A stretch of 64,000 nt of DNA from Malaciobacter pacificus (GTDB taxonomy: Bacteria; Campylobacterota; Campylobacteria; Campylobacterales; Arcobacteraceae): positions 1,240,001 to 1,304,000 of the forward strand of contig NZ_CP035928.1 in the NCBI RefSeq assembly GCF_004214795.1. Direction: 5' to 3'. The notes beneath the pieces were generated by a model. It saw only the letters and a program-made list of their open reading frames with translations, was not told where the DNA came from and made no database searches. The position numbers and the translations under genes were made by a program. Below are positions 2,906 through 50,764 of the stretch, piece by piece; position 1 is the first letter of the stretch; each line of letters starts with the position of its first letter.

Positions 2906-4234
2906 ATGGATTTAACACCAAAGCAGATAGTTGAATATTTAGATGATTATATTATTGGTCAAAAAAATGCTAAAAAAACTATTGCCTTAGCTTTAAGAAA
3001 TAGATTTAGAAGAATGAAAGTAGAACCTACACTTCAAGAAGAAATTATGCCAAAAAATATTTTGATGATAGGAAGTACTGGTGTTGGTAAAACTGAGATT
3101 GCTAGAAGATTAGCAAAAATGATGGGATTACCTTTTGTAAAAGTTGAAGCTAGTAAATATACTGAAGTTGGTTTTGTAGGTCGAGATGTCGAATCAATGG
3201 TTCGAGACTTAGTTTATGAATCAATTAATCTTGTAACAAAAGAGTATGAAGAAAAAATCAAAGATAAAATTGAAGAAGAAGTAAATAAAAAAATCATTGA
3301 AAAATTAGTACCACCACTTCCTGATAGTGCAAGTGATAGTGCAAAAGAATCATTTATTAAAACATATAATGTGATGGAAGAGAAACTTCTAAAGGGTGAT
3401 TTAGATGATAAAACTATTGAGATAGAAATCCCTAAAAAGACTCATGTAGAGATTTTAGATTCTAATATGCCTTTAGATATGAGTTCTATGCAAGAGAGTT
3501 TAAATAAAATGCTTGGTGGACTTAATAAAGAGAAAATAAAAAAAGAAGTGAAAATTAAAGATGCTAAGGTTTTATTAAAATCAAGTGCAAGTGAATCTTT
3601 ACTTGACCAAGAAGCAATTAAAATTGAAGCGATTAAAAGAGCAGAATCAGGTGGAATTATTTTTTTAGATGAAATTGATAAAATTGCATCAGGTAAATCA
3701 AATCAAAATCAAGACCCATCAAAAGAGGGAGTTCAAAGAGACTTACTTCCAATAGTTGAAGGAAGTTCTGTTCAGACAAAATTTGGTCATGTAAAAACTG
3801 ACCATATTTTATTTATAGCAGCAGGGGCATTTCATGTATCTAAACCAAGTGATTTACTGCCAGAATTACAAGGACGATTTCCTTTAAGAGTTGAGTTAGA
3901 AACTTTAGATGAAGATGCTTTATATAAAATTTTAACAAATACTAAAAATTCACTTCTTAGACAATATAAAGCTTTATTAGAAGTTGAAGAAGTAGAGTTA
4001 GAGTTTGATGATGAATCAATTAAAGCTTTTGCAAAATATTCTGTGACTGCAAATAATAAAACAGAAGATATTGGTGCGAGAAGACTTCATACTGTTATTG
4101 AAAAAGTTATTGAAGATATTTCATTTAATGCTGATGAAATGAAGGGACAAAAAGTAATAGTAACTAAAGAACTAGTAGAAGAAAAACTAGATACTATTGT
4201 GGAAGACGACGATTTAGCTAAGTATATATTATAG
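2906..4234 (+). CDS. hslU: ATP-dependent protease ATPase subunit HslU
   Basis: A 442-aa AAA+ unfoldase. Walker A GSTGVGKT is at 56-63, and Walker B lies in GGIIFLDEIDK (about 250). The sensor and arginine regions include ELQGRFPLRVEL and TEDIGARRLHTV, and the C-terminal DDDLAKYIL tail that docks into HslV is intact. The inserted I domain (about 110-240) is Lys/Glu rich. It works with HslV immediately upstream. Confidence 0.97.
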   Translation: MDLTPKQIVEYLDDYIIGQKNAKKTIALALRNRFRRMKVEPTLQEEIMPKNILMIGSTGVGKTEIARRLAKMMGLPFVKVEASKYTEVGFVGRDVESMVRDLVYESINLVTKEYEEKIKDKIEEEVNKKIIEKLVPPLPDSASDSAKESFIKTYNVMEEKLLKGDLDDKTIEIEIPKKTHVEILDSNMPLDMSSMQESLNKMLGGLNKEKIKKEVKIKDAKVLLKSSASESLLDQEAIKIEAIKRAESGGIIFLDEIDKIASGKSNQNQDPSKEGVQRDLLPIVEGSSVQTKFGHVKTDHILFIAAGAFHVSKPSDLLPELQGRFPLRVELETLDEDALYKILTNTKNSLLRQYKALLEVEEVELEFDDESIKAFAKYSVTANNKTEDIGARRLHTVIEKVIEDISFNADEMKGQKVIVTKELVEEKLDTIVEDDDLAKYIL

Positions 4235-4296
4235 GTCTTTAAAATTAATAATTTTTTAGATAGAATATATCTATTAATAATTTAGGGGAGTTGGTT

Positions 4297-4602
4297 ATGG
4301 ATATAATTACATTTAATGAGGTTGATGAATCATTATTTAATAGTGAGTTTAAGGTTGAACACTTTCATACAGGAACTAGTATGAAAGCTGATGTTGTGAT
4401 ATTGGATATTAATACGATATTTGAATTTGAAGAGAATAAAGCTGAAGTTACAAAAGATAAATATGTGTCAATTGCAGTAATTGAAGATGAAAGTGATTAT
4501 GATGCTTTCAAGAATTTTGGAATTGATGCATGGATTTTAGCAAGTGAAATTTCTCAAATTAATAATATAGTAAATCTAGTAAATAAAAGATTTTTATCAT
4601 AA
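4297..4602 (+). CDS. Conserved small protein of unknown function between hslU and the TatD gene
   Basis: About 101 aa, acidic, soluble, no signal or membrane segment. The pattern VVILDIN, SIAVIEDES and GIDAWILASEISQINNIVNLV resembles the alternating strands and helices of a response-regulator receiver without a proven phosphorylation site; this is a weak fold impression only. ATG 4297 is preferred over the in-frame TTG at 4291 because AGGGGAG (4284-4290) is then 6 nt away. The downstream TatD gene begins about 10 bp after the stop. Confidence 0.7.
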   Translation: MDIITFNEVDESLFNSEFKVEHFHTGTSMKADVVILDINTIFEFEENKAEVTKDKYVSIAVIEDESDYDAFKNFGIDAWILASEISQINNIVNLVNKRFLS

Positions 4603-4612
4603 GGGATAAGTT

Positions 4613-5401
4613 ATTATTTTAGATACACACTGTCATTTAGACAATGAAAAATTTTATGAAGATATTGATGAAGTTATAAAAAATGCACTTGAACATGGAG
4701 TTAAAGGTTTTTTAATTCCTGGTGCTGATTTTGAAGATTTACCTCAAGCTGTTAAATTAGCTGAAAAATATGATGAAGTATTTTTTAGTGTAGGAATACA
4801 CCCTTATGATTGTGATTCTTATGATGAATCAATAATGGAAAAATATGTAACTCACCCTAAATGTATTGCTATTGGTGAATGTGGTTTAGACTACTTTAGA
4901 CTCCCTGAAGATGAAGAAGAAAAAAGACAAAATATAGCAAAACAAAAAGAGGTATTTATATCTCAAATAGAGTTTGCAAAAAAAGTAAATAAACCTTTAA
5001 TAGTACATATAAGAGAAGCATCAAATGATTCAAGACAAATTTTAATGGATTATAATGCAAAAGAAGTTGGTGGAGTATTACACTGCTTTAATGCAAGTGA
5101 GCATCTACTTCCATTAGCTGACCATGGATTTTATTATGGAATTGGAGGAGTATTAACTTTTAAAAATGCTAAAAAGTTAGTTGATGTTCTACCTAAAATC
5201 CCAAAAGATAAATTAATAATTGAAACAGATGCTCCATATTTGACTCCTCATCCCCATAGAGGAAAAAGAAATGAACCATACTATACAGTTTTTGTAGCTG
5301 ATAAAATGGCAGAATTACTTAATATGCCAAGGGATGAGATAGAAAAGCTTACTACAAACAATGCTATAAAATTATTTAATGAATTTTCTAGAATATCTTA
5401 G
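4613..5401 (+). CDS. TatD family metal-dependent hydrolase/DNase starting at ATT
   Basis: Reading back from the obvious TatD body, the frame contains the required N-terminal metal motif as M-I-L-D-T-H-C-H-L-D (HxH at residues 6 and 8). The only codons between the in-frame stop TAA 4607-4609 and that motif are GTT, ATT, ATT and TTA. ATT 4613 gives the canonical N-terminus and lies 6 nt after AAGGGA (4601-4606). Later motifs: GIHPYDCD, GECGLDYFR, HIREA, LHCFNAS, IETDAPYLTPHPHRG. Length 262 aa, typical of TatD/YcfH. A start at ATG 4835 would delete the active site. Likely Mg2+-dependent 3'-5' exonuclease or repair role, by family. Confidence 0.85.
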   Translation: MILDTHCHLDNEKFYEDIDEVIKNALEHGVKGFLIPGADFEDLPQAVKLAEKYDEVFFSVGIHPYDCDSYDESIMEKYVTHPKCIAIGECGLDYFRLPEDEEEKRQNIAKQKEVFISQIEFAKKVNKPLIVHIREASNDSRQILMDYNAKEVGGVLHCFNASEHLLPLADHGFYYGIGGVLTFKNAKKLVDVLPKIPKDKLIIETDAPYLTPHPHRGKRNEPYYTVFVADKMAELLNMPRDEIEKLTTNNAIKLFNEFSRIS

Positions 5402-5522
5402 ATATAATATATACTATTTAAGATACTAGAAAGTTTATTTACAAATACTCAAATATATTCTTACTATAAGCTATTACAGAGTTGTTTAAATTTAAACTTT
5501 ATTAAAAATTTAAAGGTACTTT
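5402..5522. other. Intergenic promoter region before rlpA
   Basis: 121 bp, very AT-rich, no reading frame. TACTATAAG at about 5463-5471 is a candidate -10 for the rlpA-hisB-kdsC-lptCA-engB run. AAAGGTAC precedes the rlpA start. Confidence 0.35.
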
Positions 5523-6422
5523 ATGTCTAAGAATAATAATCTATTTTTTCAAAGTATAGTTGCAACTGTTATTTTAGGTGTAGCTTTTTCTGGATGTTCC
5601 TCAAAAAAAACTAGACTAGCAAGTAATACAACAATCAATAAGTTTTATAAAGATACTAATAATACAAAGATTAAAAACTCAAGAAATATGCATAAATATA
5701 CATTAAGACCATATAGTGTTTTTGGTATAAAATATTATCCTTTTGTGGCTAATGTAGGTGATGAATTTACAGGGATTGCATCTTGGTATGGTCCAGATTT
5801 TCATGCAAAGAAAACTTCAAATGGTGAAACCTATAATATGTACGCTTTAACAGCAGCACATAAGACTCTACCCATGAATACAGTTGTAAGAGTTGATAAC
5901 TTAGAAAATGGTAAATCTGTAATTGTAAGAATCAATGATAGAGGACCTTTTGTAAAAGGCAGAATAATTGACTTATCAAATAAAGCTGCCCATGCTATTG
6001 ATATGGTTAGAAAAGGTACAGCTAAAGTAAAAGTTACTGTATTAGGATATAATGGTGAAATAAATAATCATAATGCGCCTACTGTAGCTCATGTAAAACA
6101 GATACCTGTTGAAACTAAACCAAAGGTTATTGATGTAGGTGAAGCTATTAACCCTACAACAATAGAAGAAAATACTGTAACACCTTCTAGTGTAGGAGCA
6201 TATAATATTCAAGTAGGAGCCTTTTCAAAAGCTCAAGGTGCTATTGAAACAAGAGATAAATTTCAAAGTTTATACCCTTCAAATAAAGTTGAAGCAAAAA
6301 GAGAATTTACGAATGGACAATATTTTTATAAAGTATTTATAAAAGGGTTTTCAACAAAAACTGATGCAGAAGTATTTAAATTAGAAAATGGTTTAAATAG
6401 TTCAATGATAGTAAAAGATTAA
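5523..6422 (+). CDS. rlpA: RlpA-like septal lytic transglycosylase lipoprotein with SPOR domain
   Basis: A 299-aa lipoprotein. The signal peptide ends in a lipobox with Cys25 (AFSGC). The double-psi beta-barrel domain includes [19 protein letters not shown] and VRINDRGPF, with the catalytic-type Asp in NDRGP. A C-terminal SPOR domain (about 225-299, [14 protein letters not shown]) binds denuded septal glycan. The family localizes to the division site and trims peptidoglycan. Only 11 bp separate it from hisB. Confidence 0.9.
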
Positions 6423-6433
6423 GGAAAAAATTA

Positions 6434-7006
6434 ATGGTAGAAGTTAATAGAAAAACAAAAGAAACAGATATTAGATGCAAACTAGATATTAATGGGACAG
6501 GAAAATCAAATATAAATACAGGTGTTGGTTTTTTTGACCATATGCTAGAAGCTTTATCAAAACATAGCGGAATAGATATTGATTTAACTTGTGATGGCGA
6601 TTTACATATTGATGCTCATCATACAGTTGAAGATTGTGGAATTGTTTTAGGACAAGCTTTAAAAAAAGAGATTTTCCCTATTGAAGCTGTTGAGAGATAT
6701 GGAAATGCAACTGTTGTTATGGATGAAGCATCAACAACTTGTGCTTTAGATTTATCAAATAGACCTTTTTTAGTATATGAAGTAAATGTTAGTGGAAAAG
6801 TAGGTGAGTTTGATGTAGAACTAGCTGAAGAGTTTTTCCATGCTTTAAGTGGAAATGCTGGATTAACAGTTCATATCATAAATGAAAGAGGAAGAAATAA
6901 ACACCATATTTTAGAAGCAAGTTTCAAAGCATTTGCTGTTGCTCTTAGACGTGCTTTAGTAAAAAATGAAAAACTTGGAATTCCAAGTACAAAAGGTGTT
7001 TTATGA
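6434..7006 (+). CDS. hisB: Imidazoleglycerol-phosphate dehydratase
   Basis: A 190-aa single-function HisB without the phosphatase domain found in enterics. Metal-binding motifs DAHHTVEDCG and GRNKHHILEASFKA are both present, as is GVGFFDHML near the N-terminus. It catalyses step six or seven of histidine biosynthesis. The stop overlaps the kdsC start by 4 bp (ATGA), so the two are translationally coupled despite unrelated pathways. Confidence 0.97.
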   Translation: MVEVNRKTKETDIRCKLDINGTGKSNINTGVGFFDHMLEALSKHSGIDIDLTCDGDLHIDAHHTVEDCGIVLGQALKKEIFPIEAVERYGNATVVMDEASTTCALDLSNRPFLVYEVNVSGKVGEFDVELAEEFFHALSGNAGLTVHIINERGRNKHHILEASFKAFAVALRRALVKNEKLGIPSTKGVL

Positions 7007-7500
7007 TTAAGTTAATTGTTTTAGATGTAGATGGAACACTAACTGATGGAAAAATCACTTACTCAAATAGTGGAGAAGAGACTAAATCTTTTGATGTAGC
7101 TGATGGTTTAGCAATTGCAGTATGGACAAAGAAATTTGGAAATAAAGCAGCAATTATTACAGGTAGAAAATCTGATATTGTTGAAAAAAGAGCTAAAGAG
7201 TTACAAATAACTCATCTTCATCAAGGTATAAAAAATAAACAAGAAGTTTTAGAAAAAATCCTTGAAGAAGAGGGAATTGATTGGTCAGAAGTTGCTGCTA
7301 TTGGTGATGATTTAAATGATTATCACATGTTAAAAAAAGCTGGACTTTCTTTTACACCTGCAAATGGTAGTCACTATATTAAAGATATAGTTAATGTTGT
7401 TTGTAAAAATAAAGGTGGAGAAGGTGCAGTTAGGGAAATGATGGAATATATTTACAAAGAAGATGGATTAGAAGAGGATTTTCTTAACGCATGGATATAA
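7003..7500 (+). CDS. kdsC: 3-deoxy-D-manno-octulosonate 8-phosphate phosphatase
   Basis: A 165-aa HAD-family phosphatase without a cap domain, usual size for KdsC. The catalytic DVDGTLTDG motif begins at Asp8; the C-terminal acidic motif is GDDLNDYHML. It releases phosphate from KDO-8-P for lipopolysaccharide inner core synthesis. Overlap by 4 bp with hisB and by 10 bp with lptC places it in the envelope operon. Confidence 0.95.
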   Translation: MIKLIVLDVDGTLTDGKITYSNSGEETKSFDVADGLAIAVWTKKFGNKAAIITGRKSDIVEKRAKELQITHLHQGIKNKQEVLEKILEEEGIDWSEVAAIGDDLNDYHMLKKAGLSFTPANGSHYIKDIVNVVCKNKGGEGAVREMMEYIYKEDGLEEDFLNAWI

Positions 7501-8021
7501 AACTATTTATTAGTGCACTTTTAGGTGTCTCTACTTTTGCATATTTCTTACCTGTTGAAAATTTAAAAAAAAGTAATGAAGATAAAGATATACCTTTAGT
7601 TATTTTTGAAAAACCTTTAATGTATTCACTAACGCAAGATGGAGTAAGTAGGGTTATTCAATCTTCTCAAGCAGTTAGATATAATACAAGAGATGAGTTA
7701 TTTGATGCTAATATTTTGGTGAAAAATGAATTAGAGAATAAACAATTTCAAGTAGAGAAATTTAATGCAGATATAATTATAAAAAAAGATAGTTTATATA
7801 CTTTGATTGATAATGTAAAATATGAAAGAGATAATTTTGCAAAATTGAAAACTAATCAAATGTTTTATGACGAAAAAAAAGATATAGTTTATAACAATAA
7901 GAGTTTTGAAGGTAATTATTATAATAGTAAATTAAAAGGAACAGATTTATATTTAGATCTAAACAATAAGACTTTTAGTGCAAAACAGACTCATTTTGAA
8001 ATAGATATGAAAAAGAAATAA
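7491..8021 (+). CDS. lptC: LPS export protein LptC
   Basis: A 176-aa bitopic protein: an N-terminal hydrophobic anchor (about 4-20) followed by a periplasmic beta-jellyroll region with the recurring YNTRDELFDANI-type strands of the LptC family. Sequence identity in this family is low, so position between kdsC and lptA is strong supporting evidence. It links the LptBFG transporter to the LptA bridge. ATG 7491 lies inside the last codons of kdsC. Confidence 0.88.
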   Translation: MDIKLFISALLGVSTFAYFLPVENLKKSNEDKDIPLVIFEKPLMYSLTQDGVSRVIQSSQAVRYNTRDELFDANILVKNELENKQFQVEKFNADIIIKKDSLYTLIDNVKYERDNFAKLKTNQMFYDEKKDIVYNNKSFEGNYYNSKLKGTDLYLDLNNKTFSAKQTHFEIDMKKK

Positions 8022-8031
8022 AGGGATTTAA

Positions 8032-8505
8032 ATGAAATATTTAGCTAGTTTATTATTAAGTTCTACACTGCTATTTGGAGCTAGTGAACAACTTATTATT
8101 GATGCAAAAAATTTTGAAGCAAGTGATAAAGAAGGTGTTTCAACATTTAGTGGTAATGTAAAAATACAAATGGGAAAAGATAAATTAAATGCAGAAAAAG
8201 TAAGTATCTTTTTTAATACAAATGGTAAAAATCCCACTAAATATGAAGCAACAGGTAATGTAAATTTTGAATTTAATACAAAAACAAAAAAGTATATAGG
8301 AAAAGGAAATAAAGTAGTTTATTCACCTTTAAAAGAAGAATACACAATCATAGGAAATGGTTTTTTACAAGAAAAAAATGATAATAGAAAAATCTATGGT
8401 GAGAAAATCTATGTAAATCAGCTAAGTGGTGAAGCAAAAGTGAGTGGAAGTGATAATAAACCAGTTAGATTTATTATTGATGTAAAAAGAGGTGAGGGAA
8501 ACTAA
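8032..8505 (+). CDS. lptA: LPS transport periplasmic protein LptA
   Basis: A 157-aa periplasmic protein with signal peptide MKYLASLLLSSTLLFGAS. The body carries the OstA/LptA-type repeats (LIIDAKNFEASDKEGVSTFSGNVKIQMG). It forms the periplasmic bridge that carries LPS from LptC to LptD. Its stop overlaps the engB start by one base (TAATG), giving tight coupling. Confidence 0.93.
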   Translation: MKYLASLLLSSTLLFGASEQLIIDAKNFEASDKEGVSTFSGNVKIQMGKDKLNAEKVSIFFNTNGKNPTKYEATGNVNFEFNTKTKKYIGKGNKVVYSPLKEEYTIIGNGFLQEKNDNRKIYGEKIYVNQLSGEAKVSGSDNKPVRFIIDVKRGEGN

Positions 8506-9116
8506 TGAAAATAGTTGATGCACAGTTTTTACAATCGGCCCAAAGTGTAGCTGATTCTCCAAGTCCCGATAGAGCAGAAGTTGCTTTTCTAGGTAGGTCT
8601 AATGTTGGAAAGTCTTCATTATTAAATACTTTAACAAATAGAAAAGGTTTAGCTAAATCATCTTCTACTCCAGGTAAAACTCAATTGATTAATTATTTTG
8701 AGATTAAGTTTAAAACTGAGAATGAAGAACTACCATATCTATATGCTAGGTTTGTCGATTTACCAGGGTTTGGTTATGCAAAAGTTGCAAAAACTTTAAA
8801 AGCTGCTTGGAACAAAAATTTAACAGGTTATTTAGAACAAAGACCTAATTTGCAGATATTTGTTCATTTAATTGATGCAAGACACCCAGATCTTGCAATT
8901 GATAAAAATGTTGATGAGTTTTTAGGAAACATTAAAAGAGGTGACCAGATTATTATTCACGCTTTTACAAAAATTGATAAATTAAAACAGAATGATTTAC
9001 AAAAATTAAAAAGAGCATACCCAGATGGAATTTTCATCTCAAATCTTAAAAAACGTGGTATGATAGATTTACAAAATAGAATTACAGGATATTTATTTGG
9101 AAATGAAATTTTATAA
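8505..9116 (+). CDS. engB: Ribosome biogenesis GTP-binding protein EngB (YihA/YsxC)
   Basis: A 203-aa TRAFAC GTPase. G1 GRSNVGKSS is at 30-38, G2 STPGKTQLIN, G3 DLPGFGYAK, G4 TKIDK. The N-terminal QSAQSVADSP segment is typical. It is an essential-type factor in late 50S assembly. The last codons overlap the start of the acetyltransferase gene. Confidence 0.96.
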   Translation: MKIVDAQFLQSAQSVADSPSPDRAEVAFLGRSNVGKSSLLNTLTNRKGLAKSSSTPGKTQLINYFEIKFKTENEELPYLYARFVDLPGFGYAKVAKTLKAAWNKNLTGYLEQRPNLQIFVHLIDARHPDLAIDKNVDEFLGNIKRGDQIIIHAFTKIDKLKQNDLQKLKRAYPDGIFISNLKKRGMIDLQNRITGYLFGNEIL

Positions 9117-9558
9117 GCCAACAGTAGCTGATATTCCTTCTATGCAAGAGCTTGTTAAGGGTGAAGTAGAGAAAGGAAATATTTTATTAAGAACTGCTGA
9201 TGAAATGGCAACAACAATTAGATCTTATACAGTTGTTTCAGTTGATGGGAAAATGGCGGGATTTACTGCAACTCATATACACTCTCCAAGACTTGCGGAA
9301 GTGAGAAGTTTGGTTGTTGGTAAAGATTTTAGAGGTCTAAAACTTGGGAAAAAACTTGTTGAAGCTTGTATTGAAGAAGCAAAATCTTATGGAATAGAGC
9401 AAGTTTTATCCTTAACTTATGAAAAAGGTTTTTTTGAAAGTTGTGGCTTTAGAGAAATCTCAAAAGAGGATATTCCTGAGCAAAAAATTTGGGCAGATTG
9501 TATTAGATGTAAACACTTCCCAATTTGTGATGAAGTTGCCATGGTAATTGATTTATAA
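9103..9558 (+). CDS. GNAT acetyltransferase, short N-acetylglutamate synthase-like
   Basis: A 151-aa GNAT enzyme with the acetyl-CoA loop region VGKDFRGLKLGKKLVE and a C-terminal cysteine cluster CIRCKHFPIC typical of stand-alone ArgA acetyltransferase domains in Campylobacterota. It probably makes N-acetylglutamate for arginine synthesis, as no amino-acid kinase domain is attached. ATG 9103 is preferred over the in-frame TTG 9097. It lies inside the engB 3' end. Confidence 0.8.
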   Translation: MKFYKPTVADIPSMQELVKGEVEKGNILLRTADEMATTIRSYTVVSVDGKMAGFTATHIHSPRLAEVRSLVVGKDFRGLKLGKKLVEACIEEAKSYGIEQVLSLTYEKGFFESCGFREISKEDIPEQKIWADCIRCKHFPICDEVAMVIDL

Positions 9559-9590
9559 ATTTCTCTTTTTTGAGAAATTTATAATTTTTT
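9555..9590. terminator. Bidirectional terminator between convergent genes
   Basis: ATAAATTTCTC (9555-9565) and GAGAAATTTAT (9572-9582) form a perfect 11-bp stem with a T-rich loop, followed by ATTTTTTATT on the + strand. It serves the + strand envelope operon and probably the minus-strand efflux operon. Confidence 0.8.
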
Positions 9591-9591
9591 A

Positions 9592-9870
9592 TTAGTTTTT
9601 TAGTTTTAGTCTTAAATATACTTTATATTTTAAATGATCAAGTTTCACTGATAAATCTTCAATATTATCAGATTCAAGTTTTTCTAACATCTTTCTATAA
9701 TCCCTGATTTTTTCATCTGTTATATCAACAATTAGTAAGTCTTTATTTGAAAATGATTTACAATTTACAACATCAATCATCTCTTGAATACTATCTTTTG
9801 TAACTTTTTTATATAGCTTTCCATTTCTATGGTAAACTTTATCAAAAAATCCTTGTTCTTCAAAACTCAT
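9592..9870 (-). CDS. Hypothetical protein at the end of the efflux operon
   Basis: 92 aa, charged and mostly helical (ITDEKIRDYRKMLEKLESDNIEDL). No signal peptide, no membrane segment, no motif that I recognise. AAAGGAAAA precedes ATG 9870, and the gene begins 20 bp after the thioredoxin-fold gene stop. It is therefore probably cotranscribed with the efflux genes; function unknown. Confidence 0.65.
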   Translation of the reverse strand: MSFEEQGFFDKVYHRNGKLYKKVTKDSIQEMIDVVNCKSFSNKDLLIVDITDEKIRDYRKMLEKLESDNIEDLSVKLDHLKYKVYLRLKLKN

Positions 9871-9890
9871 TTGTATTTTCCTTTAAAAAA

Positions 9891-10373
9891 TTATTTAGCC
9901 CACCATAGTTTCAGTTTCAAACTAAAACTAGAAGTATATCCTACATCACTAAACTTTAAATTTCCATTTTTATCATAAATTAATGTAGTAGGATAAGTTT
10001 TTATATTAAATCTGTATGCAAAATCATTATAAATATCATCAATAACGTTAAAAGTAAACTTGTTTTCTTTTAAATACTCTTCTATTTTTTCTTTAGAACC
10101 AGACTGACTAGCTATTGTTATAACTTGATAATCCTTTGAAAGAGATTCAATATTAGGTGACTGAAATTTACAAACAGGACACCACGTGGCCCAAAAATAT
10201 ACTAAAGTTGGTTTTGAGTCATCTAAAATATATTTTGAATCATTAATTAATGTAAATGAATCGTATGGAAACTTCTCTTTATTTAAATCTTGTGCTTTAT
10301 AAAAGCTTACAACATTTAAAGCTACTATTATTATGATTGAGTATTTAATAATCTCTTTTATATATTTTTTAAT
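9891..10373 (-). CDS. Thioredoxin-fold periplasmic oxidoreductase (TlpA/ScsD-like) starting at ATT
   Basis: An uninterrupted 160-aa frame: a positively charged N-terminus and single hydrophobic anchor (about 8-24), the thioredoxin motif W64-C65-P66-V67-C68 in FWATWCPVC, and the cis-proline loop TYPT (126-129). There is no ATG, GTG or TTG upstream of the anchor. ATT 10373 lies 1 nt after the stop of the permease half and 9 nt after AAAAAAGG, so it is the best start. Likely role: disulfide oxidation or reduction in the periplasm, membrane-tethered. A link to the efflux operon is by position only. Confidence 0.85.
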   Translation of the reverse strand: MKKYIKEIIKYSIIIIVALNVVSFYKAQDLNKEKFPYDSFTLINDSKYILDDSKPTLVYFWATWCPVCKFQSPNIESLSKDYQVITIASQSGSKEKIEEYLKENKFTFNVIDDIYNDFAYRFNIKTYPTTLIYDKNGNLKFSDVGYTSSFSLKLKLWWAK

Positions 10374-10374
10374 T

Positions 10375-12030
10375 TTATAAAACCTTTTTTAATTGATTTT
10401 TGATAATTACTGGTACAAAGAACATTGAAACCACATAAGAGATTAAAGTTCCACCAATAAGTGCAACACCAAGCCCTCCAAATACTGCATCAGTAGCAAG
10501 TAATGATGAAGCAAATACCATAGTTAAAACTGTTAGAATAATAGGTTTTGATCTAGTTGCAGTGGCTCTTGCAATAGCTTCATTTATTCCCATTCCATTT
10601 TCATTAACTAACTGTTTTGAAAAATCTATTATTAGTGTAGAGTTTCTTGAATTAATTCCAATTAGCCCAATAAATCCAATAAGTGAAGTTGCTGTTAGAT
10701 AAAAAGTATCAGCAGTAATTAAATCCATAATAATGTGAGCAAATATAACTCCAATGATAGAGACAAAACTAGCTAGTACAATACCACCAGAAATTGCAAA
10801 ACTTTTATAATACATTACCATTAAAAAGAAAATTAATACAAGTGCAATGATAAATGCCCCTCCTAAGTCTCTAAATGTATCTAAAGTTACTTTTAGCTCT
10901 CCATCAAAAATAAGTTCAAATCTCTCATTTGACTTTTTATCTACAAAAGCTAGATTTAGCATATTTGTTTTAACTACTTTATAATCATTTGATAGTTCAT
11001 CAAACATATCAGCTCTTGCATCAAGTAGGGGATAGATTTGGCTATCTTTATCAGTTTCTGCTATTACATTTATCATTTGATTTAAATTTTTAGAAGTTAT
11101 TGTTGGTTCTTTTATAGTCTCTTTAACACTAACAAACTCTGAAATACTTACTGTAAAGCCTTGATTGTTTATTACTTTTAGAGTTTGAAGTCTGTTTATT
11201 AAATCTTCTTTTGAAGATTTATTTAAGAGTCTACTATCATCAAGTCTTAGGAAAATTGGGATTTGACTCTCTGCTTTGTTTTCATTTATAACAGAAATTT
11301 CCATACCTTCATAAGCTAAAAATAGTATATTTTTGATTTGCTCTAAACTAACACCACTTTTTATAGCTTTATTGTTATCTAGTTCTAATTCATACATTTT
11401 ATAATCATCATCAGCCATAACATCAATATCAACTAAAGTTGCTTGTTTTTCTAGTATTTTTGCTATTTTTTGCGAAAAATCTCTTCTACTTTCAAAACTA
11501 TTTCCACCATAAATCTCTGCAACTATTGAAGCAAGTACGGGAGGACCTGCTGGAAGTTCGATTAATTTGATTGTAGCTTCATATTTTGTACAAATTTCTT
11601 GGATATTTTTTCTAAGTTTTGATACTAGATTATAACTTGTGATATCTCTATTTTCAGCTCTTTTTATATTCACCATGATTTCAGCTTGTGACTCTTTATC
11701 TTTTAGGGCACTTTGTTTTACAAGTGCTGCAAAATCTAAAGGTTGACCTTCACCTAAAAATACTGAGATATTAGTTACATTTTCATTTTTCTGTAATTCA
11801 TTTGAGATACATCTAGTTAGCTCTTTTGTTTGATTTATACTTGAGCCATCTTTTAAATCAACATACACAGAGAATGTATCAGAGTCTTTACTTGGTAGCA
11901 TCTTCGCTTTTACTATTTCAGTTGGGAACGTGGCTACTGAAAGTAAAAATAGAACTAAAGTGATAAGATAAACCATCAGTGATTTTGATTTACTATTTAA
12001 AATACTTAATATAAATTTTTCTAATTTCAT
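10375..12030 (-). CDS. RND efflux permease, C-terminal half (separate polypeptide)
   Basis: About 551 aa covering the second half of an AcrB-type permease: TM7-like helix (YLITLVLFLLSVATFP), the second porter domain, and TM8-12 with GINSRNSTLIIDF, in which Arg replaces the usual Lys of the proton relay. It is in the same reading frame as the N-terminal half but separated by TAG-GAT-TAA-GTG. AGGA lies 7 nt before ATG 12030, so it has its own ribosome binding site. It presumably pairs with the upstream half to make a full pump of about 1,077 residues. Confidence 0.88.
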   Translation of the reverse strand: MKLEKFILSILNSKSKSLMVYLITLVLFLLSVATFPTEIVKAKMLPSKDSDTFSVYVDLKDGSSINQTKELTRCISNELQKNENVTNISVFLGEGQPLDFAALVKQSALKDKESQAEIMVNIKRAENRDITSYNLVSKLRKNIQEICTKYEATIKLIELPAGPPVLASIVAEIYGGNSFESRRDFSQKIAKILEKQATLVDIDVMADDDYKMYELELDNNKAIKSGVSLEQIKNILFLAYEGMEISVINENKAESQIPIFLRLDDSRLLNKSSKEDLINRLQTLKVINNQGFTVSISEFVSVKETIKEPTITSKNLNQMINVIAETDKDSQIYPLLDARADMFDELSNDYKVVKTNMLNLAFVDKKSNERFELIFDGELKVTLDTFRDLGGAFIIALVLIFFLMVMYYKSFAISGGIVLASFVSIIGVIFAHIIMDLITADTFYLTATSLIGFIGLIGINSRNSTLIIDFSKQLVNENGMGINEAIARATATRSKPIILTVLTMVFASSLLATDAVFGGLGVALIGGTLISYVVSMFFVPVIIKNQLKKVL

Positions 12031-12039
12031 CACTTAATC

Positions 12040-13620
12040 CTATAAAAATTTCTTAACAAAATATGGCATAAATGCATAAGCTACAAAAAGCGAAGCAACA
12101 AGTGATATTGGTATAAATACCGGAAGAGGGTGCATAAATTGTCCCATCATTCCACCAACAAAGAACATAGGAATAAATGTCATAATAATTGCAATCGTTG
12201 CAATATTTGTAGCATTTCCTATTTCATTTGTAGCGTTTATTGAAATTACTTTTATATCAGCATCTAAACTCATTTGTCTGTGTCGGTGAATGTTTTCAAT
12301 TACTATAATTGCAGCATCTACTAACATTCCAAGACTTACAATAAGTGCAAATAGAGTAATTCTATTTACAGTCTCATCAATCATAAATCCTATAAATAGT
12401 GTTAATGATAAAATCATAGGAACTGCTAGTGAAACTATCATTGCTTCTTTAAATCCAAGTGTAAAGATAAGTAAAATTGCTATAATCACAATAGAAATAA
12501 GTAAGTTTTGAACCAAACTATTTACTGCATTGTTTGCAGTGTATCCATCATCTCTTGTGATTGTATATTTGATGTTTTGTGAAAGTAACTCTTCTTTGAT
12601 GCTATCCATATATTCAAATACTTTTTCATTGATAACAACAGAGTTTGCACCTTTTAGTTTTGATACAGTCATTGTAAGTTGTTCAATCTCTTCAAATTCA
12701 CCATTTTTATCTTTTTGATAAAGTAAGGCTTCTTTTTTATTTTGAATATCATAATCTCTTGTTACATTTGCAATATCTTTTAGATATACAGGAACACCAA
12801 AATTATATGAGATGATTATATTTTCAATATCTTTAGCACTTTGAATAGCTTGTTTAATTCCAAATACTACGATTGAATTATCTTTAGTATTTCCAGTGAT
12901 ATTTGGAGTTTTGTATGAAAGTGATTGAATCTGTTTCATAACTTGTCCTAAAGATAAATTATAAGCTGATAGTTTATTTGAATCAACTAATATATTGTAT
13001 TGCTCTTTTTTTTCACCCTTTAAATCCACAAGTGCTACATTATCAATCTTATTTATCTCTTTTGTAATCTTATTTACTTCATTGTATAAAGTTGTTTGAG
13101 ATACTAAGTCAACTCCGTCTTTTTTTGCTGAATAAAATGCAATAGTAGCAATTGGAATATCTGTATCAATATCCATAGTTTTAATAATAGGTTGCATTGC
13201 CCCACGGGGCATTAAATCCATATTTCTCATAACTTGATCGTACAGTTTTAGATTTGATTCCTCTTTATCTTGACCAATATAGTATTGAGCTTGTACAATT
13301 CCTACAGAATCTTTTGCATAAGAGTAGATATGTTCAACACCTTTGATTTCTTTTATTTTTTTCTCTAATGGTTCAATAATCACCTTTTGAATTTCACTTG
13401 GTTTTGCTCCTGGAAGTGCAACAATAACAGCTCCTCCACTTACTTTTATTTGTGGATTTTCTTCCCTTGGCATAAATACAAGTGAGATGTATCCAAGGGC
13501 AAGTATAAACATTCCTAAAATAAGTGTTAATGGATGTTCTATAAAACCACTTGCAAGACGACCAGCAATATTTTGATTTTTTTTATCAATTTTATGTGAA
13601 AATTCTTGTTCATTTATCAT
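12040..13620 (-). CDS. RND efflux permease, N-terminal half (separate polypeptide)
   Basis: 526 aa. TM1 (HPLTLILGMFILALGYISLVF) is followed by PREENPQI, a porter domain, and TM2-6. The proton-relay motif in TM4 reads GMLVDAAIIVIENI: the first of the two conserved Asp residues is kept and the second is Ala. It ends KKFL at the natural boundary between the two halves of RND permeases. It sits between the adaptor gene (8-bp gap) and the second half. Confidence 0.88.
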   Translation of the reverse strand: MINEQEFSHKIDKKNQNIAGRLASGFIEHPLTLILGMFILALGYISLVFMPREENPQIKVSGGAVIVALPGAKPSEIQKVIIEPLEKKIKEIKGVEHIYSYAKDSVGIVQAQYYIGQDKEESNLKLYDQVMRNMDLMPRGAMQPIIKTMDIDTDIPIATIAFYSAKKDGVDLVSQTTLYNEVNKITKEINKIDNVALVDLKGEKKEQYNILVDSNKLSAYNLSLGQVMKQIQSLSYKTPNITGNTKDNSIVVFGIKQAIQSAKDIENIIISYNFGVPVYLKDIANVTRDYDIQNKKEALLYQKDKNGEFEEIEQLTMTVSKLKGANSVVINEKVFEYMDSIKEELLSQNIKYTITRDDGYTANNAVNSLVQNLLISIVIIAILLIFTLGFKEAMIVSLAVPMILSLTLFIGFMIDETVNRITLFALIVSLGMLVDAAIIVIENIHRHRQMSLDADIKVISINATNEIGNATNIATIAIIMTFIPMFFVGGMMGQFMHPLPVFIPISLVASLFVAYAFMPYFVKKFL

Positions 13621-13628
13621 AAATTCAC

Positions 13629-14384
13629 CTATTTAATATCTAATAAAAGTTTTGAATACATACCTGGATAAATAGTCTTATCACCTTTATTAAAACTAAT
13701 TTTTAGTGTAAATGAGTGAGTTGTTGTATTTACATTTGGAATGATGGATTCTATTTTTCCATTTGTCTCAAAGTTAATCGATGGGATTGAAACTTTTACA
13801 TCATCACCAACTTTTACACTATTTAAATTTGATTCACTAATATCTGTTTTAATTTTTAAACTAGTTAAATCTGAAAGAATAATAGCTGGAACACTTGGCA
13901 TTGCCATTTCCCCAGCTTTGATTGATTTTTTGATAACTAAACCATCATTTGGAGCTTTGATTTTTAAATAATCATATTGAGTATTTATCTCTTTTAATTT
14001 AGCATTTGTAATGGCAATCATATTTTTTGTATTCATTAGATTTAATTCTAATTGTTCTACATCATATTTTGGAACTAAATCTTGTGCATATAATCTTTTG
14101 TATCTATTATAGTTTGTTTGAATATTATTTAATTGGTTTTGTTGAATTTGAAGATTTAATAAAATCTCTTTTTTATTTGAATCCATATTTGATGAATCAA
14201 TCTCATAAAGAAGTTCTCCTTTTTTTACAAAAGAACCTTCACTCACATATACATTTTTTACAAATCCCATATTTCTAGAACTTATTACTTTTTCATTATC
14301 TGAAATAACTGTTCCTGATAATTCTATTTCTTGAGAGAATAGGCTTAGAGATAGGGCAGTTATAGCTAATAGTTTTTTTATCAT
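13629..14384 (-). CDS. RND efflux periplasmic adaptor (membrane fusion protein)
   Basis: 251 aa with signal peptide MIKKLLAITALSLSLFSQE. The biotinyl-like half-motifs GFVKNVYVSEGSFVKKGELLYEID and IKAPNDGLVIKKSIKAGE flank a coiled-coil hairpin (about 75-125). The C-terminal beta-barrel region ends TIYPGMYSKLLLDIK. Rather short for an AcrA homologue: the membrane-proximal domain is reduced. ATG 14384 overlaps the outer membrane gene stop by 4 bp. Confidence 0.9.
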   Translation of the reverse strand: MIKKLLAITALSLSLFSQEIELSGTVISDNEKVISSRNMGFVKNVYVSEGSFVKKGELLYEIDSSNMDSNKKEILLNLQIQQNQLNNIQTNYNRYKRLYAQDLVPKYDVEQLELNLMNTKNMIAITNAKLKEINTQYDYLKIKAPNDGLVIKKSIKAGEMAMPSVPAIILSDLTSLKIKTDISESNLNSVKVGDDVKVSIPSINFETNGKIESIIPNVNTTTHSFTLKISFNKGDKTIYPGMYSKLLLDIK

Positions 14385-15721
14385 AGTTTGTTTCCTAATA
14401 CTAATTTTAATTTTGCAAGTGCAAGTGATTTTTCATATTTTGCTACTATTAGTTGAGCTTCATTATTTCTAAGATTTGCTTCTTGTTCTAATAGACTTGT
14501 CATTGGAATCAAGTGATTTTTATACATTAGTTTTGATTGTTCAAAAACTTCACTTGCTAAATTTTTAGCTTCAAGTTTTTCTTTTAATATTTTCTCTTTT
14601 GCTTTTAAAGTAAGTATCGCATTGTTTAATTCTAATTTGATAGCATCTTTTAGTTTTTCATCATTTATAGTTGCTTTTTGATACTCTATTTTTGATTTCT
14701 CTTTTTGTACACTTCTATTTGCATCAAATAGTGTAAAATTAACTCCAAGCATAGCCATATAGTAATCTTTGTCACTATCAAGTGTAAATTTATCATCATT
14801 AAAACCATACTCTAAATGAGTATAAATATTTGGATAATATTCAGCATTTGCAACATCAATACTCTTTTTTAAAGCATTTTTTTGAATATCTTGCATTTTT
14901 ACTTCATCTCTATTTTTTAGTGCAACTTTATATAATCTTTCTAAATCATATTCTCCATTTGAGATATTTTTTAAATCTTTAACATCTTTTATTTCATCAT
15001 TTGAAGTTAGAAATCTAAGATACGCTAATGCTAATTCAAATTTATTTTGTGCTTCTATTAAGTGAGAGTTTACATTTAGTTTATGTACTTTTGCTTGTTT
15101 TACATCTATTTTTGTTACTAAGCCTTCATTATGAAATGCAGTTGCACCTTTTACAACTAGTTCTATGGCTTCTTTTGCTTTTTGAGTGGCATTTATAAAC
15201 TCTTTTGCTACAACAGCACCATTGTAAGCTTTTAAAACTTCGTAAGATAACTCTTTTTCATTTAGATTATATTTTAGTTCTTGGGCTTTTTGTTGAAGTT
15301 TTAAAATATCTTTTTGATTTGATAGTTTAAATCCAGTAAAAAGTGGAATATCATATGTTACTTTTGTATTAAAGTTGTTTCTAGTGTCTGGATTATTTAG
15401 ATTATCTGGAATTACATTTATATCAGCAGGTGTTTGAAATTGTAATGCTCCAAAGTCATTAAAACTAGCCTCCCTAGAAGATAGTTTAGAATTAAATACA
15501 TATCCAGGGTGGTTTGTTCTTGATATTTCTTCACTTAGTGCTAATTTCCCATATGAAAATGAATCAACACTTTTAATATCTAATTTTGAATTTTCTATTT
15601 GTAGTTTTTGGTTTTTTAAATCTTTATTATTTTTTAGTGTCATATCTAAAGCTTCATCAAAACTTATAGTTTGAGAATAAGTAAGTGATGCTAATAATAA
15701 TGATAAATAAATCTTATGCAT
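14381..15721 (-). CDS. TolC family outer membrane efflux protein
   Basis: 446 aa, signal peptide MHKIYLSLLLASLTYSQ, then two OEP repeats made of long amphipathic helices with heptad character (LEQEANLRNNEAQLIVAKYEKSLALAKLKLVLG at the end is typical). It provides the outer membrane exit for the pump genes downstream. A -10 box TATAAT lies at 15750-15755 (minus strand) and GGAAGGG precedes the ATG. Confidence 0.92.
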   Translation of the reverse strand: MHKIYLSLLLASLTYSQTISFDEALDMTLKNNKDLKNQKLQIENSKLDIKSVDSFSYGKLALSEEISRTNHPGYVFNSKLSSREASFNDFGALQFQTPADINVIPDNLNNPDTRNNFNTKVTYDIPLFTGFKLSNQKDILKLQQKAQELKYNLNEKELSYEVLKAYNGAVVAKEFINATQKAKEAIELVVKGATAFHNEGLVTKIDVKQAKVHKLNVNSHLIEAQNKFELALAYLRFLTSNDEIKDVKDLKNISNGEYDLERLYKVALKNRDEVKMQDIQKNALKKSIDVANAEYYPNIYTHLEYGFNDDKFTLDSDKDYYMAMLGVNFTLFDANRSVQKEKSKIEYQKATINDEKLKDAIKLELNNAILTLKAKEKILKEKLEAKNLASEVFEQSKLMYKNHLIPMTSLLEQEANLRNNEAQLIVAKYEKSLALAKLKLVLGNKL

Positions 15722-16494: not shown

Positions 16495-19400
16495 TTAATT
16501 AGCTACTTTTATAGCTATTTGATAGTCAGTTAAGTAATTTAAAATAGAATAAATTTTAATATAGTAAACTCCAGAATCAAGAGTTAAATTATCAATTTTT
16601 GTAGAATTATTATTAAAAGAACTATCAAATATTTTATTAGATAAACCTTGTTTATAAATTTCATAATTAGCTAGATTAAGAGTAGTTAATGCTTCAATTG
16701 AAATAGTAGTTTGTTCAGTTAATTCAAATTTTAAATAATCAATATCATCACTAAGTTCTAAACTACCAGTAGTTGTTGTATTAAGAGATACTTCTGCTGC
16801 ACTTGATTGAGTATTACTATAATCATCATGATTAACAATACCTGAAGAACCTTTTATAGCTATTTGATAGTCAGTTAAGTAATTTAAAATAGAATAAATT
16901 TTAATATAGTAAACTCCAGAATCAAGAGTTAAATTATCAATTTTTGTAGAATTATTATTAAAAGAACTATCAAATATTTTATTAGATAAACCTTGTTTAT
17001 AAATTTCATAATTAGCTAGATTAAGAGTAGTTAATGCTTCAATTGAAATAGTAGTTTGTTCAGTTAATTCAAATTTTAAATAATCAATATCATCACTAAG
17101 TTCTAAACTACCAGTAGTTGTTGTATTAAGAGATACTTCTGCTGCACTTGATTGAGTATTACTATAATCATCATGATTAACAATACCTGAAGAACCTTTT
17201 ATAGCTATTTGATAGTCAGTTAAGTAATTTAAAATAGAATAAATTTTAATATAGTAAACTCCAGAATCAAGAGTTAAATTATCAATTTTTGTAGAATTAT
17301 TATTAAAAGAACTATCAAATATTTTATTAGATAAACCTTGTTTATAAATTTCATAATTAGCTAGATTAAGAGTAGTTAATGCTTCAATTGAAATAGTAGT
17401 TTGTTCAGCTAATTCAAATTTTAAATAATCAATATCATCACTAAGTTCTAAACTACCAGTAGTTGTTGTATTAAGAGATACTTCTGCTGCACTTGATTGA
17501 GTATTACTATAATCATCATGATTAACAATACCTGAAGAACCTTTTATAGCTATTTGATAGTCAGTTAAGTAATTTAAAATAGAATAAATTTTAATATAGT
17601 AAACTCCAGAATCAAGAGTTAAATTATCAATTTTTGTAGAATTATTATTAAAAGAACTATCAAATATTTTATTAGATAAACCTTGTTTATAAATTTCATA
17701 ATTAGCTAGATTAAGAGTAGTTAATGCTTCAATTGAAATAGTAGTTTGTTCAGCTAATTCAAATTTTAAATAATCAATATCATCACTAAGTTCTAAACTA
17801 CCAGTAGTTGTTGTATTAAGAGATACTTCTGCTGCACTTGATTGAGTATTACTATAATCATCATGATTAACAATACCTGAAGAACCTTTTATAGCTATTT
17901 GATAGTCAGTTAAGTAATTTAAAATAGAATAAATTTTAATATAGTAAACTCCAGAATCAAGAGTTAAATTATCAATTTTTGTAGAATTATTATTAAAAGA
18001 ACTATCAAATATTTTATTAGATAAACCTTGTTTATAAATTTCATAATTAGCTAGATTAAGAGTAGTTAATGCTTCAATTGAAATAGTAGTTTGTTCAGTT
18101 AATTCAAATTTTAAATAATCAATATCATCACTAAGTTCTAAACTACCAGTAGTTGTTGTATTAAGAGATACTTCTGCTGCACTTGATTGAGTATTACTAT
18201 AATCATCATGATTAACAATACCTGAAGAACCTTTTATAGCTATTTGATAGTCAGTTAAGTAATTTAAAATAGAATAAATTTTAATATAGTAAACTCCAGA
18301 ATCAAGAGTTAAATTATCAATTTTTGTAGAATTATTATTAAAAGAACTATCAAATATTTTATTAGATAAACCTTGTTTATAAATTTCATAATTAGCTAGA
18401 TTAAGAGTAGTTAATGCTTCAATTGAAATAGTAGTTTGTTCAGTTAATTCAAATTTTAAATAATCAATATCATCACTAAGTTCTAAACTACCAGTAGTTG
18501 TTGTATTAAGAGATACTTCTGTTGCACTTGATTGAGTATTACTATAATCATCTAAAGATATATTTTCACTTGGGACAGTGTTTTCATAAACATCAATAAC
18601 TTGAATACCAATTATTCCTGATTGTGAACTATTATTAGAAGAATCTGTAGCTACTACATATATTTCATAATAGTCTTTTGTTTCATAATCAGGGGCTGCT
18701 TTAAATGTAATCTCTCCTGTTGTAGAATCTATATTAAAATAACTTGCATCAACTCCAGTTAAACTATATGTGATTTCAGATTCATCAGTGGCTGTAATTG
18801 TTACACTAAATGTAGTATCATTTTCATTTACTCCTGAATGCATTCCTAATTCTGGTGGAAGATCTGTAAATACAGGAGCTGTAACATCTGGCTCATAAAT
18901 ATCATTAATACTTATTGTAATCTCTTTTGAAGTGCTATTATTTGAAGTATCTACTGCTTTAACAATTATTACATATGAGTTTTTTGTTTCATAATCAGGT
19001 GCTGCTTTAAAAGTAATCTCTCCTGTTGTTGAATCTATATTAAATAAATCTGCATCTGTTCCACTAATTGAATATATTAAACTTGATGAATTATCAGTGG
19101 CATTTATTGTAAATGCAGTTGTTTGATTTTCATCTATATTAATTGTTGAACTATTTGAAATAATAGGTGCTGTTATATCTACTTCATCCTCAACTAAAAA
19201 CTCTATTAAAACATCAGTGTTCCCACCATTATTTACTAAAGAATTACCTGCAAAATCCTTTAACTTTGAGCTTACAGTAAACTCTAAAGATTGTGAATAT
19301 GAAAAATTGTTTATAGGTTTTATTGTAACACTATCTTTATCTCCTTCTATTGTTAATTCAATATCATTTCCACTTGGATAGTCAACTAATCTAAAATACT

Positions 19401-20064
19401 CATTTGTTAAATATTGTTTAGGGATATCTTCTGAAAATGTTAGAACAATTGATGCATTTGTAGAAACACCTGTTTGTCCATTTGTAATAGAACTACTAAC
19501 TAATTCTATAGCAGTCATATCACTAATAACCCCATGTTGTTTTTGAGAATTTATTATATGTGCTCTAACTTCTTCAGGAGTTTTAACACTAAAACCATTT
19601 GATGTTAAAATTGTACTTATATTTAAATCGTCAATTGTTTTATTTGTATTTTCAAATTTAGTAAAATCTGATGAATTAATTTCAATTTCATCAGTACTAG
19701 AATCAGAATCTAGAGATTGTAATAAACCAGCTATTTTAAGTAATTTATTATCAGTAGTATTAGTTCTATCAATTCCTATAATATCTTGAATAAATACTTT
19801 ATTATCACTAGTCATAGAGTTTAATTCACCTAGTTTAATATCTCCTAAATAAAACTCAACTAAACCAGATGTATAAGGGAAATTACCATTTGAATCAGTA
19901 TATCCAGTATCTGTTCCATTTACATATTTAACACCAGAAATAATATTATCAATCAATGTACCAGTTGTAGCTAAAGGAGCACCAGAAGATGAACCTCCAC
20001 CTCCACAACCTACTAAAAATCCTGCTGTTATTGTTGATAGTATTAAAGAGTTTAATCTTTTCAT
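16495..20064 (-). CDS. Large surface lipoprotein: Ig-like, two cadherin-like and six near-identical PPC-type repeats
   Basis: 1,189 aa. Lipobox FLVGCGGGGSSSG (Cys about 20) and a Gly/Ser linker come first. Next is an N-terminal module (about 30-165), a bacterial Ig-like domain (NGQTGVSTNASIVLTFSEDI), and two cadherin-like repeats, each with ATD and LFNIDSTTGEITFKAAPDYE. Six tandem 115-aa repeats resembling pre-peptidase C-terminal domains (DDIDYLKFEL, GVYYIKIY) end the protein. No secretion-system tail is visible. Role in adhesion or biofilm is inference. ATG 20064 follows AAAGGAAAA; the promoter carries direct repeats. Confidence 0.85.
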   Translation of the reverse strand: MKRLNSLILSTITAGFLVGCGGGGSSSGAPLATTGTLIDNIISGVKYVNGTDTGYTDSNGNFPYTSGLVEFYLGDIKLGELNSMTSDNKVFIQDIIGIDRTNTTDNKLLKIAGLLQSLDSDSSTDEIEINSSDFTKFENTNKTIDDLNISTILTSNGFSVKTPEEVRAHIINSQKQHGVISDMTAIELVSSSITNGQTGVSTNASIVLTFSEDIPKQYLTNEYFRLVDYPSGNDIELTIEGDKDSVTIKPINNFSYSQSLEFTVSSKLKDFAGNSLVNNGGNTDVLIEFLVEDEVDITAPIISNSSTINIDENQTTAFTINATDNSSSLIYSISGTDADLFNIDSTTGEITFKAAPDYETKNSYVIIVKAVDTSNNSTSKEITISINDIYEPDVTAPVFTDLPPELGMHSGVNENDTTFSVTITATDESEITYSLTGVDASYFNIDSTTGEITFKAAPDYETKDYYEIYVVATDSSNNSSQSGIIGIQVIDVYENTVPSENISLDDYSNTQSSATEVSLNTTTTGSLELSDDIDYLKFELTEQTTISIEALTTLNLANYEIYKQGLSNKIFDSSFNNNSTKIDNLTLDSGVYYIKIYSILNYLTDYQIAIKGSSGIVNHDDYSNTQSSAAEVSLNTTTTGSLELSDDIDYLKFELTEQTTISIEALTTLNLANYEIYKQGLSNKIFDSSFNNNSTKIDNLTLDSGVYYIKIYSILNYLTDYQIAIKGSSGIVNHDDYSNTQSSAAEVSLNTTTTGSLELSDDIDYLKFELAEQTTISIEALTTLNLANYEIYKQGLSNKIFDSSFNNNSTKIDNLTLDSGVYYIKIYSILNYLTDYQIAIKGSSGIVNHDDYSNTQSSAAEVSLNTTTTGSLELSDDIDYLKFELAEQTTISIEALTTLNLANYEIYKQGLSNKIFDSSFNNNSTKIDNLTLDSGVYYIKIYSILNYLTDYQIAIKGSSGIVNHDDYSNTQSSAAEVSLNTTTTGSLELSDDIDYLKFELTEQTTISIEALTTLNLANYEIYKQGLSNKIFDSSFNNNSTKIDNLTLDSGVYYIKIYSILNYLTDYQIAIKGSSGIVNHDDYSNTQSSAAEVSLNTTTTGSLELSDDIDYLKFELTEQTTISIEALTTLNLANYEIYKQGLSNKIFDSSFNNNSTKIDNLTLDSGVYYIKIYSILNYLTDYQIAIKVAN
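16501..18551 (-). repeat. Six tandem 345-bp coding repeats
   Basis: The marker TATTTGATAG recurs at 16516, 16861, 17206, 17551, 17896 and 18241, exactly 345 bp apart. Copies differ at only a few bases: CAGCT instead of CAGTT in two middle copies (FELAEQ versus FELTEQ) and GTTGC instead of GCTGC in the N-terminal copy. The near identity at synonymous sites indicates recent expansion or ongoing gene conversion. Confidence 0.97.
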
Positions 20065-49150: not shown

Positions 49151-49678
49151 ATGTTTTATAAATTATTGTTTATATTTCTAGCAATTTTTAGTAGTTTAAA
49201 TGCAATAGAAGATATTAAAAACTTAAGAAGTTTCAAAGCAGACTTTTCACAAGTAATTGACTCTTCAAATGGAAATGAAATTAATTACACAGGAGAAGTA
49301 TATATAAAAGATGATGGGAAAATTCTATGGAAATATAAAACGCCTATTATTAAAAATGTATATATTTTAAAAGATTATGCAATTGTAGATGAACCAGAAC
49401 TTGAGCAAGCAATCATTACAAACTTAGAGAGTGAAATAAATATTATTGAATTATTAAATAAATCAAATAAAATTGATGAAAAAACTTATGTTTCAAAAAT
49501 TGAAGATGTTGATTATTTAATAGGTTTAGAAAATAACAAAATTCATACTATAAAGTATAAAGATAAGTTAGATAATAAAGTTATAATAACTTTTAATGAT
49601 AGTATTGAAAACACTAATCTAAGTGAAGAAATTTTTAAATTCTCTGCACCAGATTATTACGATATTATTCGAAAATAA
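49151..49678 (+). CDS. lolA: Outer membrane lipoprotein carrier LolA
   Basis: 175 aa. Signal peptide FKLLFIFLAIFSSLNA-type, then an unclosed beta-barrel with FKADFSQVI, GKILWKYKTP and INIIELLN typical of LolA. It shuttles lipoproteins across the periplasm. Divergent from secA; its 3' end overlaps the EAL fragment by 22 bp in convergent orientation. Confidence 0.9.
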   Translation: MFYKLLFIFLAIFSSLNAIEDIKNLRSFKADFSQVIDSSNGNEINYTGEVYIKDDGKILWKYKTPIIKNVYILKDYAIVDEPELEQAIITNLESEINIIELLNKSNKIDEKTYVSKIEDVDYLIGLENNKIHTIKYKDKLDNKVIITFNDSIENTNLSEEIFKFSAPDYYDIIRK

Positions 49679-50690: not shown

Positions 50691-50764
50691 TGGAGTGGTA
50701 ACATAAATTCAGACAAAGAATTTTAGAGATTCTGCGTTAAAATAAAAAATGAATAAGGGTTACC

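Follow-up and report, generated by a model that had tools for sequence, protein, structure and literature searches.

The 64,000-nt stretch of DNA analysed here (the window, part of genome G000) carries, behind the genes of an efflux transporter, an open frame for a thioredoxin-fold protein that shows no ordinary start codon where one is expected. An earlier note, made from the letters alone, proposed that this gene starts at ATT. This raises the question of whether the frame is a live gene translated from AUU, and whether the lineage uses such starts more often than assumed. The locus was compared across 104 genomes of one family, which by gene content and genome sizes presumably is Arcobacteraceae.

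The frame lies on the minus strand and extends from stop to stop over 10388..9891 (165 codons). Counted from the ATT it has 160 residues, which agrees with the 160 uninterrupted codons claimed earlier and supplies the strand that the claim left unstated; the plus strand opposite is full of stops. The translation reads KRFYKIKKYIKE...WWAK, or with its landmarks KRFYKIKKYIKEIIKYSIIIIVALNVVSFYKAQDLNKEK...FWATWCPVCK...TYPTTLIYD...WWAK. The motifs and the membrane anchor named in the earlier note are all present. WCPVC forms a CxxC active site and TYPT a cis-Pro loop, with C65, C68, P128 and T129 invariant in a 19-row alignment, and the predicted N-terminal anchor, read from the translation, is the hydrophobic run YSIIIIVALNVVSFY behind a basic start. 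Pfam matches above gathering score are AhpC-TSA (1.1e-12, 48.5 bits, cut-off 26), Thioredoxin (5.3e-12, 46.1 bits, cut-off 23.5) and Redoxin (39 bits, cut-off 26.6). None of the NCBIfam models listed reaches its cut-off with this product (StoA 68.2/210, DsbE 45.7/123.15 and ResA 42.3/170 bits). StoA is the best of these matches (7.2e-19), and the closest solved chain is 3erw, also StoA (1.4e-12). The product is a predicted TlpA/ResA-like membrane-anchored thiol-disulfide protein. It shares the anchor, CxxC and TYPT with TlpA, ResA and StoA proteins, but differs from them in falling below the NCBIfam cut-offs and in being encoded inside an efflux operon.

Homologues, fold family and synteny together indicate that the frame, termed tlpA here, is a real gene and the last cistron of an outer-membrane-protein/fusion-protein/split-RND efflux operon (Table 1). 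In nine relatives a fusion-protein-sized frame is followed by a split RND pair and then by tlpA. Because these nine share it, the succession of fusion protein, the two RND halves and tlpA is old. The RND transporter itself is divided between two half-length genes that share a reading frame and are separated by stops, and two half-length genes are also present in the nine relatives. Elsewhere on the minus strand, at 16495-20064, the window encodes a protein of 1189 residues in which units of roughly 100 residues (DDYSNTQSSA...) recur several times almost unchanged.

Table 1. Locations of the genes, start codons and signals discussed (window positions unless a locus is given)
Feature	Location	Strand	Details
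AAGGG, Shine-Dalgarno-like	4601..4605	+	7 nt before tatD ATT; -5.2 kcal/mol
tatD, presumed first ATT-start gene	4613..5401	+	ATT 4613-4615 at family start position; open frame from 4610
Small gene downstream of tlpA	9592..9870	-	G002 counterpart (L005) at the same site, 84% identity
tlpA-like CDS	9891..10373	-	ATT to TAA, 160 residues; predicted membrane anchor and thioredoxin fold
Proposed AUU start of tlpA	10371..10373	-	Ile5 codon of homologues
AGG codon	10383..10385	-	four codons upstream of ATT; ATG/GTG/TTG there in 53/59 other family genomes
AAAAAAGG, Shine-Dalgarno-like	10383..10390	-	within RND gene 3' end, 9 nt before ATT
RND efflux transporter, second half	10375..12033	-	552 aa; ACR_tran positions 517-1016
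RND efflux transporter, first half	12040..13620	-	526 aa; ACR_tran positions 5-486
Membrane fusion protein of efflux operon	13629..14384	-	HlyD_D23
Outer membrane efflux protein	14381..15721	-	OEP
AUH candidate, G000	L259:15666-18560		ATC; signal-peptide-like start, weak RCC1-repeat matches
AUH candidate, G000	L263:13297-13740		ATA; no Pfam match
AUH candidate, G000	L278:10840-11532		ATC; signal-peptide-like start

At the DNA level, the tlpA frame has neither ATG nor GTG, and its one TTG is codon 157. The earlier statement that no ordinary start lies upstream of the anchor was therefore, if anything, too cautious. Since the chance of 156 coding codons without ATG, GTG or TTG is about 0.016, estimated from codon usage, the mere absence of these codons is only mildly unusual. 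The real anomaly is that a start is missing from the conserved start position. Read along the minus strand, TAA (10377-10375) closes the upstream RND gene, then come one base and the ATT (10373-10371), just as the earlier note described. The ribosome binding site that it called good, AAAAAAGG, is present, but its anti-Shine-Dalgarno (anti-SD) pairing is modest at -3.8 kcal/mol; weaker pairing is found in only 22% of 305 sampled ordinary starts. With a 9 nt spacing and a single base from TAA to ATT, both the SD sequence and the coupling position are usable. The other AUH codons (AUA, AUU or AUC) among the first 21 of tlpA have anti-SD values of -2.9 to +2.3, none stronger than that of the ATT. 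This ATT is the best candidate start, and translation likely begins at AUU there.

Homologues of tlpA were found in 60 of the 104 family genomes at E <= 1e-25, and the start region was located in all 60. In 56 of the 59 other genes an ordinary start precedes the ATT position by three to six codons: at four codons it is ATG in 49, TTG in two and GTG in two, at three codons ATG in two, and at six codons TTG in one (L151). The usual N-terminus in the family is M-x-x-K-(I/L/V)-K-K-Y. The other three genes differ individually. L153 has an ATG further upstream, outside the range of the main start scan; L004, if aligned without gaps, has an ATG where the window has the ATT, a four-residue gap being equally possible; and L016 (G011) has a TTG exactly at the ATT position, directly behind the upstream gene's stop. 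L016 suggests that even a weak start codon at this place, right behind an upstream stop, can start tlpA. An AUH start is not conserved in tlpA: each of the 59 other family genes begins with an ordinary start codon at or close to the N-terminus. The AUU occurs in a single genome, the sole exception of the 60, from a genus represented by that one genome. Because family homologues start upstream and the ATT corresponds to their fifth codon, the comparison identifies it as an ancestral isoleucine codon used as a start in one genome, not as a conserved start. The earlier proposal of an ATT-start gene accordingly holds for the best available start and fails for conservation, and the finding that it had said would speak against it, orthologues that clearly start elsewhere, applies in part.

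The second gene at issue, presumably the other ATT-start gene of the earlier note, is tatD. Its product matches Pfam TatD_DNase at 5.1e-80, and the first ordinary start in the window is codon 76 of the open frame, beyond the DTHCH motif. tatD is present in 100 of the 104 family genomes. The start position is AUH in 91 of these (ATA 70, ATT 17, ATC 4), and 88 of the 100 genes have no ordinary start codon at or before the DTHCH motif; an ordinary codon occurs further upstream in frame in three of the 91 AUH genes (G009, G065 and G120). ATG starts are seen in G094 and G019, and one codon up in G011, G027 and G112, while GTG is used in G007, G024, G036 and G090. Sister-family tatD genes show ATG, GTG or TTG at the start position or one codon before it in all 22 readable loci, the 23rd being cut by a contig end. 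In AUH tatD genes the distance from the end of the SD core to the start codon is 8 nt in 61 of 90 rows and 7 nt in 20. Eight of the 90 rows have just one codon between an in-frame stop and the AUH, which leaves hardly any alternative start. Strong comparative evidence points to an AUH start of tatD inherited in the family. Codon bias was also considered. With relatedness uncorrected, ATA exceeds its frequency at the next Ile codon when counted at the tatD start (chi-square p about 3e-10), but the excess over the second Ile codon is not clear (p 0.14, likewise uncorrected); the bias was not taken as proof of an AUH start.

Outside these two genes, the genome scan for frames without ATG, GTG or TTG starts that the earlier note had proposed was run on a sample: the window and 600 kb further of G000, or 664 kb, 25% of the genome, screened by codon usage. 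A total of 613 coding frames were kept and 23 were flagged as lacking an early ordinary start. Sorted by eye, five were convincing, tatD, tlpA, L259:15666, L263:13300 and L278:10849, and the others were judged to be frames antisense to genes or outside them, broken genes, or genes of the ordinary kind extended upstream by an open run. The sample thus yields three candidates beyond tatD and tlpA, two of them backed by homologues. The L259 gene, in 20 loci, has ATC in seven (window genome included), ATT in one, and ATG at or near the same codon in 12. The L263 gene, in 25 loci, has ATA in the window genome and 13 others and ATC in L341, all at the same place; ten other loci have ATG or GTG two codons further down, and a GTG is also found further upstream in L331 and L341. 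Homologues of the L278 gene are few and diverse (ATC, ATT, TTG, ATG). These comparisons support putative AUH starts for the L259 and L263 genes and point weakly to one for L278. A 200 kb sample of G109 gave 11 flagged frames of 194, none convincing by eye, and the G109 tatD itself has ATA; 200 kb of G051, from another family, gave none of 184. That the lineage uses AUH starts more than assumed, as the earlier note had asked, appears well supported, because tatD is AUH in 91 of 100 family genomes and further genes emerge from a 25% genome sample.

Two further observations concern unusual frames. The window at 49657-50736 (minus strand) has a coding frame of 359 codons, RRISKILCLNLC..., that lacks an early start and resembles the remnant of a broken signalling gene. 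In G000 L264, at about 3683-13819, a long tandem array of ~321-base units was seen via antisense frames and is probably a large repetitive protein.

A change in IF3 was considered as the cause of the AUH starts. Among 20 parsed infC loci of 30 (12 from the family and eight from sister families), the IF3 C-domain stretch is alike in the family and the sister families. The proposal was rejected because sister families with similar IF3 have ordinary tatD starts where readable.

How tlpA came to its AUU is suggested by the surrounding sequence. The best match to the window locus is G002, with 80% identity in the RND first half, 81% in the second half (L368) and 84% in the downstream gene (L005). 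The window and G002 tlpA genes share only 53% identity, versus 75-76% with those of G098, G109 and G110, and the tlpA tree groups the window with these three at support 100/100. In none of the three is tlpA behind an RND gene. G002 has 79 nt between RND stop and tlpA start and a long gap to the next gene too; the window has gaps of 1 nt on the RND side and 20 nt to the downstream gene. As tlpA resembles the G098/G109/G110 allele while the flanking locus matches G002, allele replacement is read as the simplest explanation: a foreign allele related to that of G098, G109 and G110 would have taken the place of the resident one in situ. The junction, as inferred with a donor allele outside the sampled genomes, would have clipped the first four tlpA codons, including the ATG. 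Ribosomes terminating at the RND stop one base upstream would then reinitiate at the AUU (10373-10371), and AAAAAAGG in the RND 3' end would help initiation. So weak a start would be tolerated because the family already appears to start several genes, notably tatD, at AUA, AUU or AUC. Reinitiation at very short stop-start spacing is well documented (PMC10666635). The tlpA start resembles known termination-reinitiation gene pairs in lying one base behind the upstream stop; in most such pairs the two genes overlap, by 1 or 4 nt (PMC10666635), and tlpA differs in this and in starting at AUU. The window tlpA probably survives by reinitiation at the ATT, and the whole account, of a live gene started at AUU by reinitiation after allele replacement and tolerated by the family's AUH habit, is considered fairly probable.

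Perhaps the replacement that took the ATG also silenced tlpA, leaving a start-less pseudogene whose decay is yet to come. The window genome is indeed the only one of 60 that has no ordinary start close to the conserved position, its terminal branch in the tlpA tree is somewhat longer (0.21 versus 0.13 for L111), and a silent recent pseudogene would look identical. On the other hand, the whole frame is intact and keeps its active-site motif, a usable SD and coupling position are still present, and dN/dS is low. Against the three nearest relatives, L111-L113, dN is 0.14-0.15 and dS 0.92-1.85 over a frame open throughout. Because these relatives give similar values among themselves (dN 0.12 and dS 0.85 for L111-L113), tlpA shows no visible sign of relaxed selection, with the qualification that dS is close to saturation and that a loss of recent date would stay hidden. 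Silencing is regarded as unlikely.

Other readings alter the start itself. In principle, one misread base close to the junction could conceal an ordinary start, yet the genome is one contig of completeness 100, the difference between this junction and those of homologues is much larger than a single base (the RND-tlpA distance is 79 nt in G002), and tatD and other genes with the same start type are backed by other genomes; a sequencing or assembly error is thus very unlikely. About as improbable is a start at another codon, either the AGG, which is in frame at the ancestral position, or an AUA or AUU further down: AGG is not known to serve as a start codon, and the later AUH codons, with anti-SD values of -2.9 or weaker, would cost the protein part of its basic N-terminus or of the anchor. 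A ribosomal frameshift at the end of the RND gene, giving an RND-TlpA fusion with no new start, could draw on A AAA AAG, a slippery heptamer just ahead of the stop in the RND frame. Minus-one slippage there meets a stop within a few codons, however, the tlpA frame is +1 and the sequence has no recognisable +1 signal, and in the nine relatives with the operon the RND gene is a cistron of its own that stops at about the same position. Such a fusion is extremely unlikely. Reinitiation at the AUU after allele replacement is retained as the preferred reading.

In E. coli, infC and pcnB are rare AUU/AUA-start genes, infC starting at AUU; the infC gene of G000 (L184) instead has a TTG near the frame start, the frame opening AAT TTG AGT with TTG as the first ordinary codon. 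The literature adds infC, cvfC1, ccpN and citZ of S. aureus (PMC13009471) and Borrelia pncA (PMC13398362) as rare AUU/AUA-start genes, and Streptomyces sigR with a GTC start under IF3 control (PMC5472188). Single AUU/AUA-start genes, some conserved among related species, are thus already known; the ccpN and cvfC1 starts are conserved among related species (PMC13009471), as is that of tatD in the family. The likeness of tatD and tlpA to infC and the other known genes is an AUH behind an SD in place of AUG. They differ from the known genes in that the tatD AUH spans most genera of one family, with AUA, AUU and AUC interchanging, and the tlpA AUU occurs in one genome after ATG loss. A limited open-access literature search found no publication tying the family, or tatD, to AUH starts. 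The broader proposal is that the family widened its start set, with AUA, AUU or AUC inherited for about 1% of genes (a conservative count from one genome) and the tatD AUH across most genera, and that this let tlpA survive the loss of its AUG; taken jointly, these points make a mildly favoured account.

Gene finders limited to ATG, GTG and TTG would shorten or miss AUH-start genes. tatD, if started at its first ordinary codon (codon 76), would lose the DTHCH motif. A family that swaps AUA, AUU and AUC at one fixed position would offer a natural way to probe the tolerance of start-codon selection, and the tlpA case may illustrate a way in which a gene might outlive the loss of its AUG, by its position one base behind a stop codon.
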